Below, in pieces: positions 6,645 to 28,043 of a DNA stretch of 28,043 nucleotides. How positions within the stretch are numbered: position 1 is the stretch's first letter; each line of letters begins with the position of its first letter. The stretch is from the NCBI GenBank assembly GCA_016777545.1, contig JADHRH010000001.1, positions 1 through 28,043 of the forward strand. The letters are read 5' to 3'. Source of the stretch: Candidatus Pelagibacter sp. (lineage in GTDB: Bacteria > Pseudomonadota > Alphaproteobacteria > Pelagibacterales > Pelagibacteraceae). Made by a program: the position numbers and the translations under genes. Below the pieces are notes generated by a model that saw nothing but the letters and a program-made list of their open reading frames with translations, searched no databases and was not told the origin of the DNA.

Positions 6645-7046
6645 TCAATTATATACGGCGATTTTAAATTTCAACTTATAATACTTACATCATATAAGAA
6701 ATTTTATTTTTAGATTAACCATATATAGATTAAGTAAAATAATACGAAACATAATTTAAAAATCACAAACTCATAGATTTTAAATTTGTAAAACTTAATC
6801 GTTCAATCAAACAGCACTGTGGCAAAATAATTTCTAAAATTGAAAACAGACCACTTCTTAGTTGTAATTACATCAGCATTAGAAAGAATATTCGCGCTAG
6901 AAATGAATCACCTGTAGATTTTATTTATTTTTATTTTTACTAAATTATTTATTGCAAATATAAATTTTATTTATTTTTGCTTTTACAAAATTATTTATTG
7001 CAAAAAAACGATTTTGCTTCTAACTAACTTTATTCCTACAAATTTT
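6645..7046. other. AT-rich spacer between rpsT and dnaA; candidate replication-origin/dnaA regulatory region
   Basis: This is the longest gene-free stretch in the window, in a genome that otherwise spaces genes by a few bases. I found no credible coding frame in it. It holds a 46-bp-period tandem duplication just upstream of dnaA (listed separately). I saw no exact TTATNCACA DnaA box; the nearest is TGTGGCAAA at 6818-6826, which on the minus strand matches 7 of 9 positions, a weak hit. Position next to dnaA-dnaN, high AT content and divergent gene orientation on the two sides (minus genes left of 5434, plus genes right of 5470) fit an origin or at least the dnaA control region, but this is inference. 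Confidence 0.4.
6919..7004. repeat. Imperfect direct repeat, two 40-bp copies at 46-bp spacing
   Basis: Copy 1 is 6919-6958 and copy 2 is 6965-7004. Aligned base by base they match at 37 of 40 positions (differences at repeat positions 15, 16 and 23). Each copy begins TTTTATTTATTTTT and ends AAATTATTTATTGCAAA. Each contains almost only A and T until the GCAAA end. The second copy ends about 43 bases before the dnaA ATG. Confidence 0.85.
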
Positions 7047-8459
7047 ATGACAAGCAACAAATCAACACAAAGTACAAAAGATGTATCTTCTGAAGCTTTA
7101 GACTGGGTTGTAATTCAAAAGGATATGAAAAATAAGCTAGGTAGCGATATATATGAAAGCTGGCTTAGAAAGATAGACTTTGTTGAAGAGATGAATAGCT
7201 ATGTCTTACTTTCGGTTTCTACCAGATTTATCCGAGACTGGATTACCTCAAGATATTTAGATCAAATTTTGCAAATAATAAAAACTTATAAGAAAGATTT
7301 AACAAGAATAGAGTTTAAGATTATTGAAAAAAATTCTGAAAATGAAATAGAAAATAATATTACTAAAAATCAAAATAATGAAAACATATCCTTCATTAAA
7401 GATACATACTTGCAATACAACAGAATAGACCCAAATAAAAGATTTGATAGTTTTATTACAGGAACAAGCAATAAACTTGCCTATGAGGCATCCATGAAAG
7501 TTTCAGAAAATATTTCTCATTATAATCCGCTTTATATTTATGGAGGAGTTGGAATGGGAAAAACACATTTATTAAATTCAATTGGTCTTTCATTAAAAGA
7601 AAAAAACAAAGTCATGTTTATTTCTGCTGAGAGATTTATGTATCAGTTTGTAAAATCAATTAAATCTAATGATATGGTAAAGTTTAAAGAGTACTTTAGA
7701 AATACTGACATATTATTGATAGATGATATTCAATTCATGAATGGTAAAGAAGCAATGCAAGAGGAGTTTTTTCATACGTTTAATGCACTATTAGATAAAG
7801 GCTCACAAGTAATAATCTCTGCCGACAGAGCTCCAAACAAATTATCAAGAATCCAAGATAGAATTAAATCAAGATTTGCTGGAGGTCTTGTTGTTGATAT
7901 ACAAAAACCAGATTATGAACTTAGAAGTAAAATTGTTAAGCAAAAAACAGAAGAATTAAACATTTTTTATTCAAATCAAGTAAATATTTCAGAAGAAATA
8001 CAAAAATTTATAAGCACAGAAATAACTACCAGTATTAGAGAGTTAGTAGGAGCAATTAATAGAGTTGTTTCCTTTTCAAGAATTTACAACAAAGTTCCAA
8101 ATTTATCAGAAGTTAAAGTAGTTTTAAAAGATCTATTAAATATTGGTGAAAATAAAGTAACAATAGATTTAATACAATCAACTGTATGTAAGTTCTTCAA
8201 AATTAGTAAAAATGAGATGTTGTCCTCAAGAAGATCAAGATATTTAGTTAGGCCGAGACAAACAGCGATCTATTTAACTAAAATATTAACCTCAAAATCC
8301 TTACCAGAAATAGGTAGAGAGTTTTCAAATAGAGATCATACAACAATTATTCATTCTGTTAAAACCATTGAAAAATTAAAAGAAAAAGATCCAGAAATGA
8401 CTAACAATATTAATAACTTAAAAAATCAGATATTGTATAATAAAGAAAATGAAATTTAA
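7047..8459 (+). CDS. dnaA: Chromosomal replication initiator protein DnaA
   Basis: A 470-residue AAA+ ATPase that binds DnaA boxes and melts the origin. A TTG at 7014 is in frame, but the ATG at 7047 (M-T-S-N-K-S-T) gives a conventional N-terminus and is preferred. Domain I is visible at about residues 20-75 (W-x-x-I-Q-K-D-M...Y-E-S-W-L-R), followed by a short Asn/Glu-rich linker. Domain III has Walker A G-G-V-G-M-G-K-T-H-L, Walker B I-L-L-I-D-D-I-Q-F, and S-A-D-R-A-P sensor region with R-I-x-D-R-I-K-S-R-F. Domain IV has the DNA-binding signature R-D-H-T-T-I-I-H-S. It overlaps dnaN by 11 bases, so the two are coupled. Confidence 0.97.
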   Translation: MTSNKSTQSTKDVSSEALDWVVIQKDMKNKLGSDIYESWLRKIDFVEEMNSYVLLSVSTRFIRDWITSRYLDQILQIIKTYKKDLTRIEFKIIEKNSENEIENNITKNQNNENISFIKDTYLQYNRIDPNKRFDSFITGTSNKLAYEASMKVSENISHYNPLYIYGGVGMGKTHLLNSIGLSLKEKNKVMFISAERFMYQFVKSIKSNDMVKFKEYFRNTDILLIDDIQFMNGKEAMQEEFFHTFNALLDKGSQVIISADRAPNKLSRIQDRIKSRFAGGLVVDIQKPDYELRSKIVKQKTEELNIFYSNQVNISEEIQKFISTEITTSIRELVGAINRVVSFSRIYNKVPNLSEVKVVLKDLLNIGENKVTIDLIQSTVCKFFKISKNEMLSSRRSRYLVRPRQTAIYLTKILTSKSLPEIGREFSNRDHTTIIHSVKTIEKLKEKDPEMTNNINNLKNQILYNKENEI

Positions 8460-9561
8460 CGTTAATCAACAAGATCTGCAACAAGCCCTTAATTATTGTC
8501 AGGGTGTGATAGAAAAAAGAAGTACACTTCCAATTTTATCTAATGTTTTGTTAAATGCCAGTAACTCAAACTTAACTATTACAGCGACAGATTTAGATTT
8601 AATTTTTATTCATCAAATTAATAATGTTGAAGTGTTAGAAGAGGGAAATACGACCACCACTTCATCTATTATGTATGATATTATAAGAAAATTTTCCTCT
8701 GGAAAAAAAATCAATTTATCTTTAACCGATGTTAGTAAGCTTCAAGTAGAGTCTGAAAAATCAATTTTTAATTTAAATTGTATTAGTGCATCCGAGTTTC
8801 CTTTGACTGATGAAAACTTCAATCAAAATGAGTTTATAATAAAATCAAAACAGTTATTAAAACTATTAAATAAATGTAAATTTTCAGTCTCTAATGATGA
8901 AACAAGACATTATTTAAGTGGAATTTTTTTTCATCAAACCCAAATAGAAGATAAAAACTTTCTAACAGCAGCTGCCACTGATAGTCACAGAATGTCTATA
9001 TCTAAAATAAGATTAGATCAAAAGATTGATTTTGAGCCAATAATTCTTCCAAAGAAAACAATCTTTCAATTATGCTCATTGTTAGAGAGCTATGATGGGG
9101 ATGTTAAGATTTCAAATGTTAAATCTAAAATTAAGTTTGAACTAAATAATAGTATTTTGATTTCCAAGTTAATTGATGGAAAATTTCCAAATTATATTCA
9201 AGTAATACCAAAAAATAATCAGAAAAAATTGGATATAAATTTAAAACTTTTTCTAGATTCAGTTGATAGAGTTGCATCGGTGTCATTAGATAAAAAAGAT
9301 GGCGTGAAATTTAATTTATCAAAAGATGTTTTAAATTTATCTGTAAACAATACAAATAGCGGAGATGGAAAAGAAAGCTTAACTGTAAAATTCGATCATG
9401 ATTTAGAGATAAGCTTTAACTCAAGATATTTAATTGACGTTGCTTCACAGCTTGATGGAGATAAAATAGAGATTTTCTTTAATGACACTGGCTCACCAGC
9501 ATTAATTAAAGATCCGGGTGACTTTGATAGTATATTTGTAATAATGCCTATGAAAGGCTAA
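8449..9561 (+). CDS. dnaN: DNA polymerase III beta subunit (sliding clamp)
   Basis: 370 residues, the usual length for the bacterial clamp that tethers polymerase III and other enzymes to DNA as a dimeric ring. Visible: N-terminal R-S-T-L-P-I-L-S-N-V-L (family signature K/R-x-T-L-P-I-L), T-A-T-D-L-D-L, A-A-T-D-S-H-R-M-S in domain 2, G-K-F-P-N-Y, and the C-terminal F-V-I-M-P-M-K (family V-x-M-P-M-R). The ATG lies inside the dnaA 3' end (11-base overlap). The downstream recF and gyrB partners seen in many genomes are not here: a convergent acyltransferase gene overlaps its stop by 4 bases. Confidence 0.96.
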   Translation: MKFNVNQQDLQQALNYCQGVIEKRSTLPILSNVLLNASNSNLTITATDLDLIFIHQINNVEVLEEGNTTTTSSIMYDIIRKFSSGKKINLSLTDVSKLQVESEKSIFNLNCISASEFPLTDENFNQNEFIIKSKQLLKLLNKCKFSVSNDETRHYLSGIFFHQTQIEDKNFLTAAATDSHRMSISKIRLDQKIDFEPIILPKKTIFQLCSLLESYDGDVKISNVKSKIKFELNNSILISKLIDGKFPNYIQVIPKNNQKKLDINLKLFLDSVDRVASVSLDKKDGVKFNLSKDVLNLSVNNTNSGDGKESLTVKFDHDLEISFNSRYLIDVASQLDGDKIEIFFNDTGSPALIKDPGDFDSIFVIMPMKG

Positions 9562-10268
9562 TTAATAGCATCGAGCTCGCTATAAATTACATTTTCAAGC
9601 TTGTGTAAAAAAACATTTTTTTCTAATCCAGGTTCAATTGGTTCTAAAATTGAAATAGTTATAATTTTATCAATTTTTTTAGGTCCTTTTTTTGGCCAAG
9701 TATTTCCAGAATTAATAGCTATAGGTTGGCAAGATATTTTAAGTTCCTCATAAATTCTGCCTGAACCTTTTTTAAAAGGTGTGCGTTCCTCCGGAGACAA
9801 CCGTGTACCTTGTGGAAAAATTATTAATGGTCTATCAGATGCATTTATTTGTTTTGATATATCATTAAAGAAGCCAAGATTATCTTTAGTTACTTTATTT
9901 CTTTTTATTGATATTGAACCAATTTTTTTTAAATACCAGCCAAATATGGGTATCATTAATAATTCCTTCTTAAGAATAAAAACTGGAGATTTAAAAATTG
10001 TTTGTAAATAAAAAGTTTCAAACATTGATTGATGAGAGGCAGCAATAAAAAACTTTCTATTATTGATAATATTTTCTTCTCCTTTAATTATAATTTTTGT
10101 TGATAAAAAAGTTTTTAAGCAAAAAGAGGTCCAGTATCCCATGATCTTACCACCAAATAAAACAATCTTTTTGGGAAGAAAAAGTGATGGTAGAAACAAT
10201 AAAGAAATAAAAATAATTCCAATATAAAAAAATAGAGAGAATAAAAAATTTCTTATCATTTTAATCAA
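9558..10268 (-). CDS. plsC: 1-acyl-sn-glycerol-3-phosphate acyltransferase (PlsC family)
   Basis: A 236-residue membrane-bound acyltransferase; members transfer a fatty acyl group to lysophosphatidic acid in phospholipid synthesis. An N-terminal hydrophobic segment of about 25 residues (F-F-Y-I-G-I-I-F-I-S-L-L-F) anchors it. The catalytic block is S-H-Q-S-M-F-E, i.e. H-x4-E where the family consensus is H-x4-D; the substrate block F-P-Q-G-T-R is intact. The conservative D-to-E change appears tolerated in related alphaproteobacterial proteins as far as I recall, so I do not read the gene as dead. The exact acyl acceptor is not certain. Last gene of the argH-lptM-lysA run, 3 bases after lysA, and convergent with dnaN. 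Confidence 0.85.
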   Translation of the reverse strand: MIKMIRNFLFSLFFYIGIIFISLLFLPSLFLPKKIVLFGGKIMGYWTSFCLKTFLSTKIIIKGEENIINNRKFFIAASHQSMFETFYLQTIFKSPVFILKKELLMIPIFGWYLKKIGSISIKRNKVTKDNLGFFNDISKQINASDRPLIIFPQGTRLSPEERTPFKKGSGRIYEELKISCQPIAINSGNTWPKKGPKKIDKIITISILEPIEPGLEKNVFLHKLENVIYSELDAIN

Positions 10269-23784: not shown

Positions 23785-24972
23785 ATGACCAAAAAATCAA
23801 ACGATGTGGTGATTACAGCTGCATTGAGGACACCAATAGGCTCATATAAGGGATCGCTAAAAGATATTAGTGCTGAAAAATTAGGTGCATCAACTATTAA
23901 AGAGGCAATCATTAGATCAGATTTAAAACCTAACGAAATTGATGAGATAATCATGGGTCACGTTCTTACTGCTGGACTTGGACAAAATCCGGCAAGACAG
24001 GCATCAATTTATGCTGGAGTTCCAATTTCAAAACCTGCCCATATTATTAATCAAGTATGTGGATCTGGATTAAGAGCAATAGTTTCAGGATATCAATCAA
24101 TCAAATTAGGAGAAAATAATATTATTATTGCAGGTGGTCAGGAAAACATGTCTAGGGCACCTCACTCTATATTCTTTAGAGAAGATAAAAGATTAGATGA
24201 AAAAAAACTATTAGATACAATGCTAAAAGATGGATTAATAGACTCATTTAACAATTATCACATGGGAGTTACTGCTGAAAATATTGCTGAAAAATATAAA
24301 ATTTCTAGGGATGAACAAGATATTTTTGCTTTAAATTCTCAAGAAAAAACTCAGAAAGCAATAAGTAAAAATAAATTTGATAATGAAATAATCAAATTAG
24401 AATTTGATATTGATAATCATAAATTAATTCTGGGGAAAGATGAACATCCAAGAGCTAATTTAAATATAGAAGATTTAAAAAAATTAAAAACTGTATTTAA
24501 AGATAATGGAACAGTTACAGCAGGAAATTCATCAGGAATAAATGATGGTGCAGCAGCAACTGTATTGATGTCAAGAGAAGAAGCAGAACTACGAGGCATT
24601 GAACCATTAGCGAAGATAACATCTTGGGCAACTTGTGGGGTCGATCCAGCATTAATGGGACTGGGTCCAATTCAGGCTATTAATATGGCATTAAAAAAGG
24701 CTGGCTGGAATATTGAAGATATTGATCTATTTGAAATTAATGAGGCTTTTGCAGCACAATGTATTGCAGTTATAAGGGAACTTAAAATACCAAAAAAAAT
24801 TGTTAACGTTAATGGTGGTGCAATCGCATTAGGTCATCCAATTGGCGCATCTGGAGCTAGAATAATGGTAACCTTAATTCATGAAATGATTAGAGAGAAC
24901 AAAAGTAAGGGCTGTGCCTCTCTTTGTATTGGTGGTGGAATGGGCATAGCTATGTGCATTGAAAGAACTTAA
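23785..24972 (+). CDS. phaA: Acetyl-CoA C-acetyltransferase (thiolase)
   Basis: A 395-residue biosynthetic-type thiolase condensing two acetyl-CoA to acetoacetyl-CoA (or the reverse). Visible: the acyl-enzyme cysteine in I-N-Q-V-C-G-S-G-L-R near residue 90, G-G-Q-E-N-M-S-R-A-P-H near 118-128, N-E-A-F-A-A-Q near 318, the catalytic His in N-V-N-G-G-A-I-A-L-G-H-P-I-G-A-S-G-A-R near 350 and the proton-donor Cys in C-I-G-G-G-M-G near 380. Length is typical. A likely -10 (TATAAA at 23760-23765) precedes it. Symbols phaA and atoB are both used for this family; no polyhydroxybutyrate genes are visible here. Confidence 0.93.
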   Translation: MTKKSNDVVITAALRTPIGSYKGSLKDISAEKLGASTIKEAIIRSDLKPNEIDEIIMGHVLTAGLGQNPARQASIYAGVPISKPAHIINQVCGSGLRAIVSGYQSIKLGENNIIIAGGQENMSRAPHSIFFREDKRLDEKKLLDTMLKDGLIDSFNNYHMGVTAENIAEKYKISRDEQDIFALNSQEKTQKAISKNKFDNEIIKLEFDIDNHKLILGKDEHPRANLNIEDLKKLKTVFKDNGTVTAGNSSGINDGAAATVLMSREEAELRGIEPLAKITSWATCGVDPALMGLGPIQAINMALKKAGWNIEDIDLFEINEAFAAQCIAVIRELKIPKKIVNVNGGAIALGHPIGASGARIMVTLIHEMIRENKSKGCASLCIGGGMGIAMCIERT

Positions 24973-25101: not shown

Positions 25102-28043
25102 ATGAGTGAAAAGCTGCTTGTCCCAGATATTGGAGATTTTGAAAAAGTTGAAATTATAGAACTTTTAGTAAAAGTTGGAGATGAAATTAAAGTTAATGAT
25201 CCAATAATTACTATAGAGAGTGATAAATCTAGTGTTGAAATTCCAGCAACAGTTTCTGGAAAAGTAGAATTTTTAAATGTTAAAGTTGGTGACAAAGTAT
25301 CCAAGGGAGATTTAATACTTAATATTAAATCTACAAATGATGCACCAGTTGAAAAGATTATACCTAAAGACACTGAAAGTATTATTAAAGAAGCGGAGTC
25401 TACTTTAGTTACTGAAAAAGAAAAAACGTTATCACCAGAGCCAATTAAAGAAAAAAAACAATCTTCAATTCAAGTTATTAGTGAAAATGATATCGATCCT
25501 TTAGAAACTCAAGATTGGATAGAATCTTTATCTGCCGTTGTTGAAAAAGATGGAAATCAAAGAGCTCATTTTTTAATTAAAGAATTAATCAATAAAGCAT
25601 ATCAAAAAGGGGCCAATATTCCTTACACTCAAAATACACCTTATATTAATACAATCCCACCTGAAGCTGAAAGTAAATCAAATGGTGATCAAAATATAGA
25701 GAGAAGAATAAGATCATTAATTAGATGGAATGCAGCTGCAATGGTTGTTAGAGCAAATAAAAAATTTCCAGAATTGGGAGGACATATAGGTACCTTCGCA
25801 TCTGCAGCTACTTTATACGATGTTGGAATGAATCATTTTTGGAGAGCAAAAAATAATAAATTTGGTGGGGACTTAATATATTTTCAAGGCCATAGTGCAC
25901 CTGGCATGTATGCTAGAGCATTTTTGGAAGGTAGATTGAATGAAAAGCAGCTTGATCGCTTTAGGCAAGAAGTAAAGCCAGGTGGACTTTCATCATACCC
26001 ACATCCCTGGTTGATGCCAAAATTTTGGCAGTTTCCAACTGTCTCAATGGGTCTAGGACCAATGCTTGCGATTTACCAAGCAAGATATATGAAATATCTA
26101 ATTAATCGGGGTTTAATTAAAGATGAAGGTAGAAAAGTTTGGGCATTTCTTGGTGATGGAGAAATGGACGAGCCCGAATCTTTAGGTGCTATAGGATTGG
26201 CAGCAAGGGAAAAACTAGACAACTTAATCTTTGTAGTAAACTGTAATCTTCAAAGATTAGATGGGCCAGTAAGAGGTAATGGAAAAATTATTCAAGAATT
26301 AGAGGGAAGTTTTAGAGGCGCTGGATGGAATGTAATAAAAGTAATCTGGGGCTCATATTGGGATTCTTTAATTGCTAACGATAAAACTGGTCACCTAGTT
26401 AAACTTATGAATGAAACTGTTGATGGTGAGTATCAAGCAATGAAAGCTCGTGATGGTGCCTATGTTAGGAAAAAATTTTTTGGAAAATTTCCTGAAACTA
26501 AAGAAATGGTTTCTAGTTTATCCGATAAAGATATTTGGAGACTTAATAGAGGAGGTCATGATCCACATAAAGTTTATGCAGCTTATGACAAAGCATCAAA
26601 AAATGTAGGTAGCCCAACAGTTATAATAGCGAAAACGATTAAAGGCTATGGAATGGGTAAAACAGGGGAAAGTGTTAACACTACTCACCAAACAAAGAAA
26701 CTGGATGTAGATGATTTACTATATTACAGAGATCGTTTTGATGTTCCTTTAACAGACGAACAGGTAAAAAATATTGAATACTACAAACCAGATGAGAAGT
26801 CTCTGGAGATTAAATACATCAAAGAGAGAAGACTAAGTCTTGGTGGATACCTTCCAGAAAGAACCAGTTATGCAAAACCGATTAAAGCACCTCCAAAAGA
26901 TATTTTTGATTTTATGAAAGTGTCAACTGGTGAAAAAGAAATGTCGACAACCATGGCAATGGTAAGAATGTTCACAAATTTATTAAGAGACAAAAATGTT
27001 TCGCCAAGATTAGTTCCAATAATTCCTGATGAAGCACGTACATTTGGAATGGAAGGTTTTTTTCAAAAAATTGGGATATATGCTCATGAAGGTCAAAAAT
27101 ATGAACCAGAAGATTCAGCTCAATTGAGTTCTTACCGAGAAGATAAAAGTGGTCAGGTATTAGAAGAGGGAATTAATGAGGCGGGTGCAATGTCTTCATG
27201 GATTGCAGCTGCTACAGCATATACAAATCATGATATTGAAATGATACCAATCTATATTTTTTATTCGATGTTTGGTTTTCAAAGAATAGGCGATCTTGCT
27301 TGGGCTGCTGGAGATAGTCAGGCTAGAGGATTTTTAATTGGGGCAACAGCAGGAAGAACAACCTTAGCAGGTGAAGGATTACAGCATCAAGATGGTCATA
27401 GCCACTTAATAGCTTCAACAATACCGAATTGTGTAACATATGATCCAACATTTCATTATGAATTAGCAGTAATTTTTAGAGAAGGCCTAAGAAGAATGCA
27501 TGAAAAAAATGAGAATGTTTTTTATTATATTACAACTATGAATGAGAATTATTCACATCCAGAAATGCCAAAAGATAAAAATTGTGAAGAGGGAATTCTT
27601 AAAGGAATGTATAAAATTAAAGAATTTACAAAATATAAAAAAACAAAAATACAACTTTTAGGTTCTGGTACAATTTTAAGAGAGATGATGGTTGCTGCTG
27701 AAATTCTCCAAAATGAATACCAAATAGATAGTGAAATTTGGAGCGTTACTAGCTTTAATGAACTTAGAAAAGATGGAATGGATGTTGAAAGATATAATTT
27801 GTTAAATCCTGATAAAGAACAAAAAGTTTCATTTGTTGAAAAATGTTTAGGTAAAAGTGAGGGTCCTATTTTAGCTGCATCAGACTATATGCGAATGAAT
27901 TCGGATCAAATTAGACCATACACAAATAAAAGCTTTTACTCATTAGGAACTGATGGATATGGTAGAAGTGATACTAGAAAAAATTTAAGAAAATTTTTTG
28001 AAGTAGATAAAGAACATATAGTTGCTTATGGGTTAAGTGTCTT
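25102..28043 (+). CDS. aceE: Pyruvate dehydrogenase E1, homodimeric type, with fused N-terminal lipoyl domain (3' end outside window)
   Basis: One uninterrupted frame of 980 codons runs to the window edge. Residues 1-78 are a lipoyl domain: K-L-L-V-P-D-I-G-D-F, V-G-D-E-I-K-V-N-D, and E-S-D-K-S-S-V-E-I-P with the lipoyl lysine at K42, then V-G-D-K-V-S-K-G-D. A charged Lys/Glu linker (~79-125) leads to a full AceE from ~127: D-P-x-E-T-Q-D-W, R-W-N-A-A-A-M, Y-P-H-P-W-L-M-P-K-F-W-Q-F, the thiamine-diphosphate motif G-D-G-E-M-D-E-P-E-S...V-N-C-N-L-Q-R, R-G-G-H-D-P, P-D-E-A-R-T-F-G-M-E-G and L-G-T-D-G-Y-G-R-S-D. By comparison with E. coli AceE only about 30 residues are missing. It decarboxylates pyruvate and acetylates a lipoyl group; normally the lipoyl domain belongs to E2. 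aceF and lpd probably lie to the right. Confidence 0.95.
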   Translation, partial: MSEKLLVPDIGDFEKVEIIELLVKVGDEIKVNDPIITIESDKSSVEIPATVSGKVEFLNVKVGDKVSKGDLILNIKSTNDAPVEKIIPKDTESIIKEAESTLVTEKEKTLSPEPIKEKKQSSIQVISENDIDPLETQDWIESLSAVVEKDGNQRAHFLIKELINKAYQKGANIPYTQNTPYINTIPPEAESKSNGDQNIERRIRSLIRWNAAAMVVRANKKFPELGGHIGTFASAATLYDVGMNHFWRAKNNKFGGDLIYFQGHSAPGMYARAFLEGRLNEKQLDRFRQEVKPGGLSSYPHPWLMPKFWQFPTVSMGLGPMLAIYQARYMKYLINRGLIKDEGRKVWAFLGDGEMDEPESLGAIGLAAREKLDNLIFVVNCNLQRLDGPVRGNGKIIQELEGSFRGAGWNVIKVIWGSYWDSLIANDKTGHLVKLMNETVDGEYQAMKARDGAYVRKKFFGKFPETKEMVSSLSDKDIWRLNRGGHDPHKVYAAYDKASKNVGSPTVIIAKTIKGYGMGKTGESVNTTHQTKKLDVDDLLYYRDRFDVPLTDEQVKNIEYYKPDEKSLEIKYIKERRLSLGGYLPERTSYAKPIKAPPKDIFDFMKVSTGEKEMSTTMAMVRMFTNLLRDKNVSPRLVPIIPDEARTFGMEGFFQKIGIYAHEGQKYEPEDSAQLSSYREDKSGQVLEEGINEAGAMSSWIAAATAYTNHDIEMIPIYIFYSMFGFQRIGDLAWAAGDSQARGFLIGATAGRTTLAGEGLQHQDGHSHLIASTIPNCVTYDPTFHYELAVIFREGLRRMHEKNENVFYYITTMNENYSHPEMPKDKNCEEGILKGMYKIKEFTKYKKTKIQLLGSGTILREMMVAAEILQNEYQIDSEIWSVTSFNELRKDGMDVERYNLLNPDKEQKVSFVEKCLGKSEGPILAASDYMRMNSDQIRPYTNKSFYSLGTDGYGRSDTRKNLRKFFEVDKEHIVAYGLSV

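Follow-up and report, generated by a model that had tools for sequence, protein, structure and literature searches.

The pyruvate dehydrogenase (PDH) complex of Escherichia coli comprises E1 (AceE), E2 (AceF, with three lipoyl domains) and E3 (Lpd, or PdhD). Lipoyl domains (LDs; PF00364) are also found on other subunits. The closest precedent for an arm on another subunit is the LD-bearing E3, with an LD moved or copied off E2; an excerpt of one source names Alcaligenes eutrophus, Neisseria meningitidis and Mycoplasma hyopneumoniae, the PDH LD of the last being reported on PdhD (PMC7873978). Here, the carrier is E1: the window, i.e. the whole stretch of 28,043 nucleotides (nt) that was analysed (contig JADHRH010000001.1 of a Candidatus Pelagibacter sp.; contig C6 of genome G000, assembly 59% complete), ends in an aceE gene with an N-terminal LD. 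Its relatives are recorded as Pelagibacteraceae, i.e. SAR11, and what is new is that in part of SAR11 the adjacent E2 has no LD.

An LD on an E1 is not new as such, since the alphaproteobacterial E1-beta carries one. The original prediction had stated that E1 only reads LDs in textbook complexes, which does not hold as a general rule: the E1-beta-type protein of locus L218 combines an N-terminal PF00364 with Transket_pyr and Transketolase_C. In Zymomonas, the LD of E1 probably belongs to the beta subunit. LDs on Zymomonas E1 are cited in PMC7873978, the excerpt of which names, by contrast, the alpha subunit. PdhB-type E1-beta resembles the SAR11 protein in having an LD at the N-terminus of a PDH E1-type chain, beyond the LDs of E2. 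However, it is a chain of a heteromeric E1, whereas the SAR11 AceE is homodimeric, its LD is set apart in our tree, and the neighbouring E2-like frame retains an LD in L213, where two adjacent LD-bearing open reading frames of 463 and 444 amino acids (aa) were found. The window protein lacks the Transket_pyr plus Transketolase_C pair that marks E1-beta. LD-bearing frames of ~600 aa with an Lpd-like motif also occur beside unfused aceEF (e.g. L085, L095). SAR11 shares with the E. coli complex the AceE and AceF families, the subunit-binding and catalytic domains and the position of R407 (R84 in SAR11), but its arm is on E1 and its E2 has zero, one or two LDs. The actinobacterial two-in-one OdhA, as presented in part of PMC10415282, likewise reflects reshuffling of E1 and E2 domains, although there the acyltransferase function, rather than an LD, was joined to E1.

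SAR11 is a very abundant bacterial group, and the portion of PMC10030771 available to us, which reports aceEF and additional aceE copies in SAR11, makes no mention of LDs. Neither a lipoyl-AceE fusion nor an LD-less SAR11 E2 was found in the literature searched; most subscription journals lay outside it, which makes this weak evidence of absence. We consider it quite probable that E1 acquired a copy of an AceF-type LD, which took over the swinging-arm role, and that the E2 arm was then lost repeatedly. It is also likely, if somewhat less certain, that at least about five SAR11 lineages have arms only on E1 and deliver them to an arm-less E2 core, with a conserved island in the E1 linker as docking element, and that the family forms a natural series of arm arrangements. 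The features of the window gene are as follows.

25102..28041, + strand: aceE with N-terminal LD; 980 codons from the ATG at 25102, stop-free to the contig end, 3' end cut
25114..25326, + strand: LD (PF00364), aa 5-75; Pfam 66.4 bits, cut-off 22.1; same position in a whole-genome scan
25225..25227, + strand: codon of K42, predicted lipoylation site (E39-S40-D41-K42-S43-S44, ESDKSS), from the sequence and SAR11 conservation
25327..25485, + strand: linker, aa 76-128, charged and variable; dN/dS ~0.37 (315 pairs)
25372..25398, + strand: linker island TESIIKEAE, aa 91-99, pattern TE.[IL]I..AE, conserved among SAR11 E1 linkers
25486..28041, + strand: homodimeric pyruvate dehydrogenase E1, aa 129-980; N-terminal region present, ~30 C-terminal residues absent; TIGR00759, 1l8a

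The window protein was confirmed as an AceE carrying an N-terminal LD in one frame, as originally predicted: LD, linker and AceE share a single stop-free frame, both domains score above their cut-offs, and K42 was correctly picked as the lysine at the lipoyl position. TIGR00759 (NCBIfam AceE) matched aa 128-976 with 1402 bits (cut-off 859.9; profile 3-850 of 885), and Pfam detected, besides the LD, Transketolase_N, PDH_E1_M and Transketolase_C_1. The E1 part aligned to residues 6-852 of the 1l8a chain, which we take to be E. coli E1p, so that the whole E1 N-terminus lies behind the LD and linker. GDGEMDEPES and LQHxDGHSH, presumably cofactor and active-site regions, are retained. Contrary to the original claim, AceE is not complete, because the contig stops at 28043, ~30 residues before the end of most relatives (uncut stop-to-stop frames of 1004-1048 aa). 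The linker is charged, as predicted, but has ~53 residues rather than 45-50. Scans of the window's own genome retrieved three PF00364 proteins, namely SucB, AccB and the fused AceE. No second PF00198 protein beside SucB was found in this assembly, and aceF lies beyond the contig end.

The fusion is widespread within SAR11. The main locus sample consisted of the best 80 of 594 relatives, retrieved with short peptides taken from the window protein, including one from its linker, and therefore leans to close kin. A single frame contains both LD and AceE in 66 of the 68 related SAR11 loci (L005-L071 and L101; 69 distinct E1 sequences including that of the window), the other two, L048 and L058, starting at a contig edge. 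An assembly artefact as the source of the fusion was rejected on the basis of this recurrent frame. Of 397 genomes drawn from family f1, which we infer to be the same family, 335 had an AceE match; among the matches listed, all run through the LD except those of G739 (contig edge) and G784 (linker indel). Beyond g1 and g5, the search covered one or two genomes from each of twelve additional genera. Of these 14 genera, 12 have at least one genome with the fusion, the matches in g288 and g291 (G493 and G496) being cut by contig edges. In these genera, each E1 frame with an N-terminus has one LD, or two (g5, g289). AceE matches were partial in G018, G050, G030 and G040.

Outside SAR11, no LD was found on AceE in any of the 41 non-SAR11 loci of the best-80-of-594 sample, which include a few from other phyla. 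The fusion was also absent from all six AceE-bearing non-SAR11 genomes among 385 alphaproteobacteria, where matches start at residue 123 or later (five frames were read, that of G284 also individually, and G170 was judged by match start alone). Among 398 Pseudomonadota genomes, of which 161 had a match, alignments extending through the LD are limited to G000 and G198 among the matches listed, although a distant LD could form a separate match. Twenty-two non-SAR11 AceE frames read one by one contained no LD. As to the phylogenetic spread that the original prediction proposed to map, LD-AceE occurs in the sampled SAR11 loci with an uncut N-terminus, bar rare breaks, and in none of the samples examined beyond SAR11.

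The adjacent AceF has one LD in 51 of the 68 loci (the frame of L017 is broken, and those of L018 and L038 are cut) and, by a home-made LD profile, none in 17, where frames measure 299-328 aa. In L017, the AceF frame is split into pieces of 270 and 179 aa. By Pfam, the AceF of L049 contains only E3_binding (PF02817, 45.9 bits) and 2-oxoacid_dh (PF00198, 254.3 bits), without PF00364; in the other LD-less AceFs, the subunit-binding and catalytic domains are present by alignment. These proteins thus have the two domains expected of an E2p and lack the canonical one to three LDs. In 12 of 15 loci inspected, the first ATG of the LD-less aceF follows the aceE stop by 0-6 nt and precedes the subunit-binding domain by a few residues. 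It overlaps aceE in L029 and L057, whereas in L068 it is found 240 nt downstream, within the gene, which means that a different start codon must serve there. AceF matches were retrieved in 333 of the 397 family genomes. Among the 149 AceF genomes listed, 38 frames were shorter than 335 aa, 111 were longer than 400 aa and none fell in between, in a list sorted by resemblance to one LD-less AceF, for which reason 38 of 149 is not a prevalence. LD-less E2 genes are under purifying selection, judging from dN/dS values of 0.071 (38 pairs) and, in the corresponding region of LD-bearing AceFs, 0.072 (193 pairs; pairs not independent in any of our dN/dS sets).

Other arrangements are two LDs on E1 with one on E2 (g5, g289) and one on E1 with two on E2 (g283). 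The 'streamlined cell' invoked in the original prediction fits SAR11, but these two-LD E1s and E2s imply that reduction was not the sole direction. Compensation for an LD-poor E2, also proposed there, is supported for other SAR11 lineages, namely those with LD-less AceF. The near relatives of the window (L005-L008) have one LD on E1 and one on E2.

In the LD-less lineages, the E1 LD seems to be the only arm found for pyruvate dehydrogenase. Seven genomes with an LD-less E2 have three PF00364 matches each, whose frame lengths fit SucB, AccB and AceE (completeness: G004 96%, G054 90%, G025 86%, G005 79%, G031 76%, G023 75% and G048 64%). Of eight genomes with an LD-bearing E2, six have four matches, G012 has five, the fifth being weak and in a 407-aa frame of no assigned identity, and G022 has three (SucB not seen). 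G004 and G054 each encode two PF00198 proteins, one of SucB size and a 308-aa AceF. Neither an LD-bearing E3 nor a free PDH lipoyl carrier was present among the PF00364 matches of the seven genomes, a survey that did not cover H-protein (PF01597) or E3 genes.

Alternatively, the E1 LD could be a mere extra arm, as in LD-bearing E1-beta or E3, with the LD-less E2s served by the arm of SucB in a mixed complex of PDH and 2-oxoglutarate dehydrogenase. The LD-less-E2 genomes do contain a SucB-size LD protein, E2 also keeps its LD in the 51 loci above, and a hybrid complex of this type has been reported for Corynebacterium glutamicum (PMC7568260, from the part at hand). Nevertheless, the LDs of SAR11 SucB differ in type (ETDKVN/ETDKVS), while in 76 uncut SAR11 AceE proteins with a single LD the residues E39, S40, D41, K42, S43 and S44 are invariant, which makes this explanation improbable. 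We regard it as very likely that the E1 arm is a working swinging arm. In two genomes of one genus, G009 and G037 (92% and 90% complete), only LD frames of SucB and AccB size were seen; by frame length and motif, no PDH-type lipoyl protein was found in these two, nor in G061, G062, G063, G069 and G074, which belong to another family of the same order.

The same invariance bears on a second alternative, in which the N-terminal LD has ceased to be lipoylated and acts as an anchor docking E1 on the E2 catalytic domain. LDs are known to dock on E2 catalytic domains, with R407 of E. coli E2 as a docking residue (PMC8421416, seen in part), and the LD has diverged further than E1, with dN/dS values of 0.09, 0.37 and 0.029 for LD, linker and E1, respectively (315 pairs). 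Against an anchor stand the invariant lipoyl motif and the lineages in which no other PDH LD was found, which would be left without an arm, and we consider it very unlikely. The docking position itself appears to be kept. The R407 position corresponds to R84 of the LD-less AceF of L049 (7b9k alignment, counted by eye), which is invariant across 18 aligned AceFs, eight of them LD-less, and from their position before the lysine, E39 and D41 would occupy the places of the E. coli contact residues E242 and D244. The HxxxDG motif was found in 74 of 80 AceFs (three not readable).

The linker is 46-70 residues long (median 55) over 80 SAR11 loci including the window. The pattern TE.[IL]I..AE, chosen after viewing the linkers, occurs in 69 of these 80, in none of 16000 shuffled sequences and in none of 58 SAR11 E2 linkers; it is absent from L025, L061, L064, L066, L067, L069, L071, L265, L274, L188 and L189. 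The original prediction named two findings that would speak against a fused protein. One, a stop or frameshift between LD and E1 in independent assemblies, was seen in G784 against 66 unbroken loci; as to the other, production of the two parts from separate starts, the window gene contains no in-frame ATG, GTG or TTG from codon 76 to 139, and 37 of the 80 loci contain none from the end of the LD to the beginning of E1, while 43 contain some. An LD and an E1 made as separate chains, through an internal start or linker cleavage, would amount to an ordinary AceE plus a free-standing lipoyl carrier. The start-like codons of those 43 loci and the separate frames of G784 would suit such a product, to which we nonetheless give hardly any credence in view of the 66 unbroken frames and of the window gene and 37 loci without such a codon (other start codons not considered).

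The arrangement of LDs on a tree of concatenated E1 and E2 (82 SAR11 and eight outgroup rows; E2 LD absent in 22, present in 58 and of unknown state in two) requires at least five changes of E2-LD state, and a smaller tree also gave five. All eight outgroup E2s bear LDs, and L066 and L067, sisters with support of 100/100, differ in having and lacking the E2 LD. These changes are best read as repeated losses. In 15 genomes with LDs on both subunits, all 15 E2 LDs are nearest to another E2 LD and 13 of the 15 E1 LDs to another E1 LD (those of L047 and L055 are nearest to an E2 LD), which favours losses and disfavours re-copying from E1. Present-day copying between E1 and E2 within genomes was not seen, E1-E2 identity being 0.640 within and 0.644 between genomes (the same number of genomes, of which L166 and L167 are nearly alike). 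The second E1 LD of L166 and L167 is closer to the E2 LD of its own genome (0.77) than to the first E1 LD (0.66 and 0.65), which hints at repeated copying. In a poorly resolved LD tree of 71 columns that carries a long-branch warning, SAR11 E1 and E2 LDs group together (support 89) within AceF-type LDs, apart from alphaproteobacterial PdhB/PdhC and SucB LDs; a few E2-type PdhC frames were tagged PdhB by a crude pattern, and SAR11 L101 was tagged outgroup. An origin of the E1 LD from the alphaproteobacterial E1-beta LD was not supported, as the latter form a separate starred group, with the warning that two long branches meet there.

Under the explanation we prefer, an AceF-type LD would have been copied onto E1 of a SAR11 ancestor. 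K42 would be lipoylated, and the arm would be reductively acetylated by the E1 that carries it or by a neighbouring one. After handing the acetyl group to E2 catalytic domains, the arm would be reoxidised by an E3 attached to a neighbouring E2. With E1 supplying arms, the E2 arm would have become dispensable, and its loss on about five or more occasions would have left an E2 made up of subunit-binding and catalytic domains and a sole arm on E1. If true, arms only on E1 and an arm-less E2 core are the reverse of the usual layout, in a very abundant group that appears to have repeatedly dropped its E2 copy. Counting LDs on E2 alone would then misjudge SAR11 pyruvate metabolism. The old question of whether the arm has to be tethered to the core, or whether any subunit is enough, could be addressed with natural proteins.

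Several points weigh against this explanation. K42 lipoylation, acyl transfer and catalysis by the E1 arm, assembly of the complex and the E2 state of the window's genome are what we infer from sequence, and loss rather than gain of the E2 LD depends on parsimony. To these are added the poor resolution and long branches of the LD tree, and the census completeness of 64-96%, which, with H-protein and E3 genes outside the survey, leaves some room for another arm. In L057, L068 and L070, one LD-less clade, AceF has HxxxNG instead of HxxxDG. In G784 (L291 6300-6800), whose lineage has an E2 without LD, an A-run indel in the linker shifts LD and E1 into different frames, reflecting either an assembly error or a recent mutation; the AceE of G032 is in three pieces with stops, which we counted against the fusion being real, and most genomes are single-cell or metagenome assemblies. 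Finally, the E1 LD has a dN/dS of 0.033 where E2 lacks an LD (36 pairs) and 0.09 where E2 has one (257 pairs), and LD/E1 distance ratios over all pairs are 1.44 and 1.94, respectively, but the medians for six and nine hand-picked pairs, 1.75 and 2.11, overlap widely (nine of ten LD-bearing pairs chosen were used, L058 being cut). Despite the all-pair trend, we therefore do not claim that the E1 LD is more tightly constrained in lineages with an LD-less E2.

Locus L316 encodes a second, unfused AceE-like protein (7008-9671; 887 aa, 55% identical), whose neighbours resemble by eye a TRAP transporter and an isocitrate-lyase relative, with no E2 seen alongside. Among the matches listed, at least 16 same-genus genomes have two AceE matches (second matches not individually checked), probably representing few independent lineages; the 15 of them with a listed AceF all have a long, LD-size frame (lists compared by eye).

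Upstream of the fused aceE, the window contains the following gene, given as context only.

23785..24972, + strand: acetyl-CoA C-acyltransferase (thiolase), TIGR01930 above cut-off

Further upstream, dnaA is directly followed by dnaN at 7014-9561.

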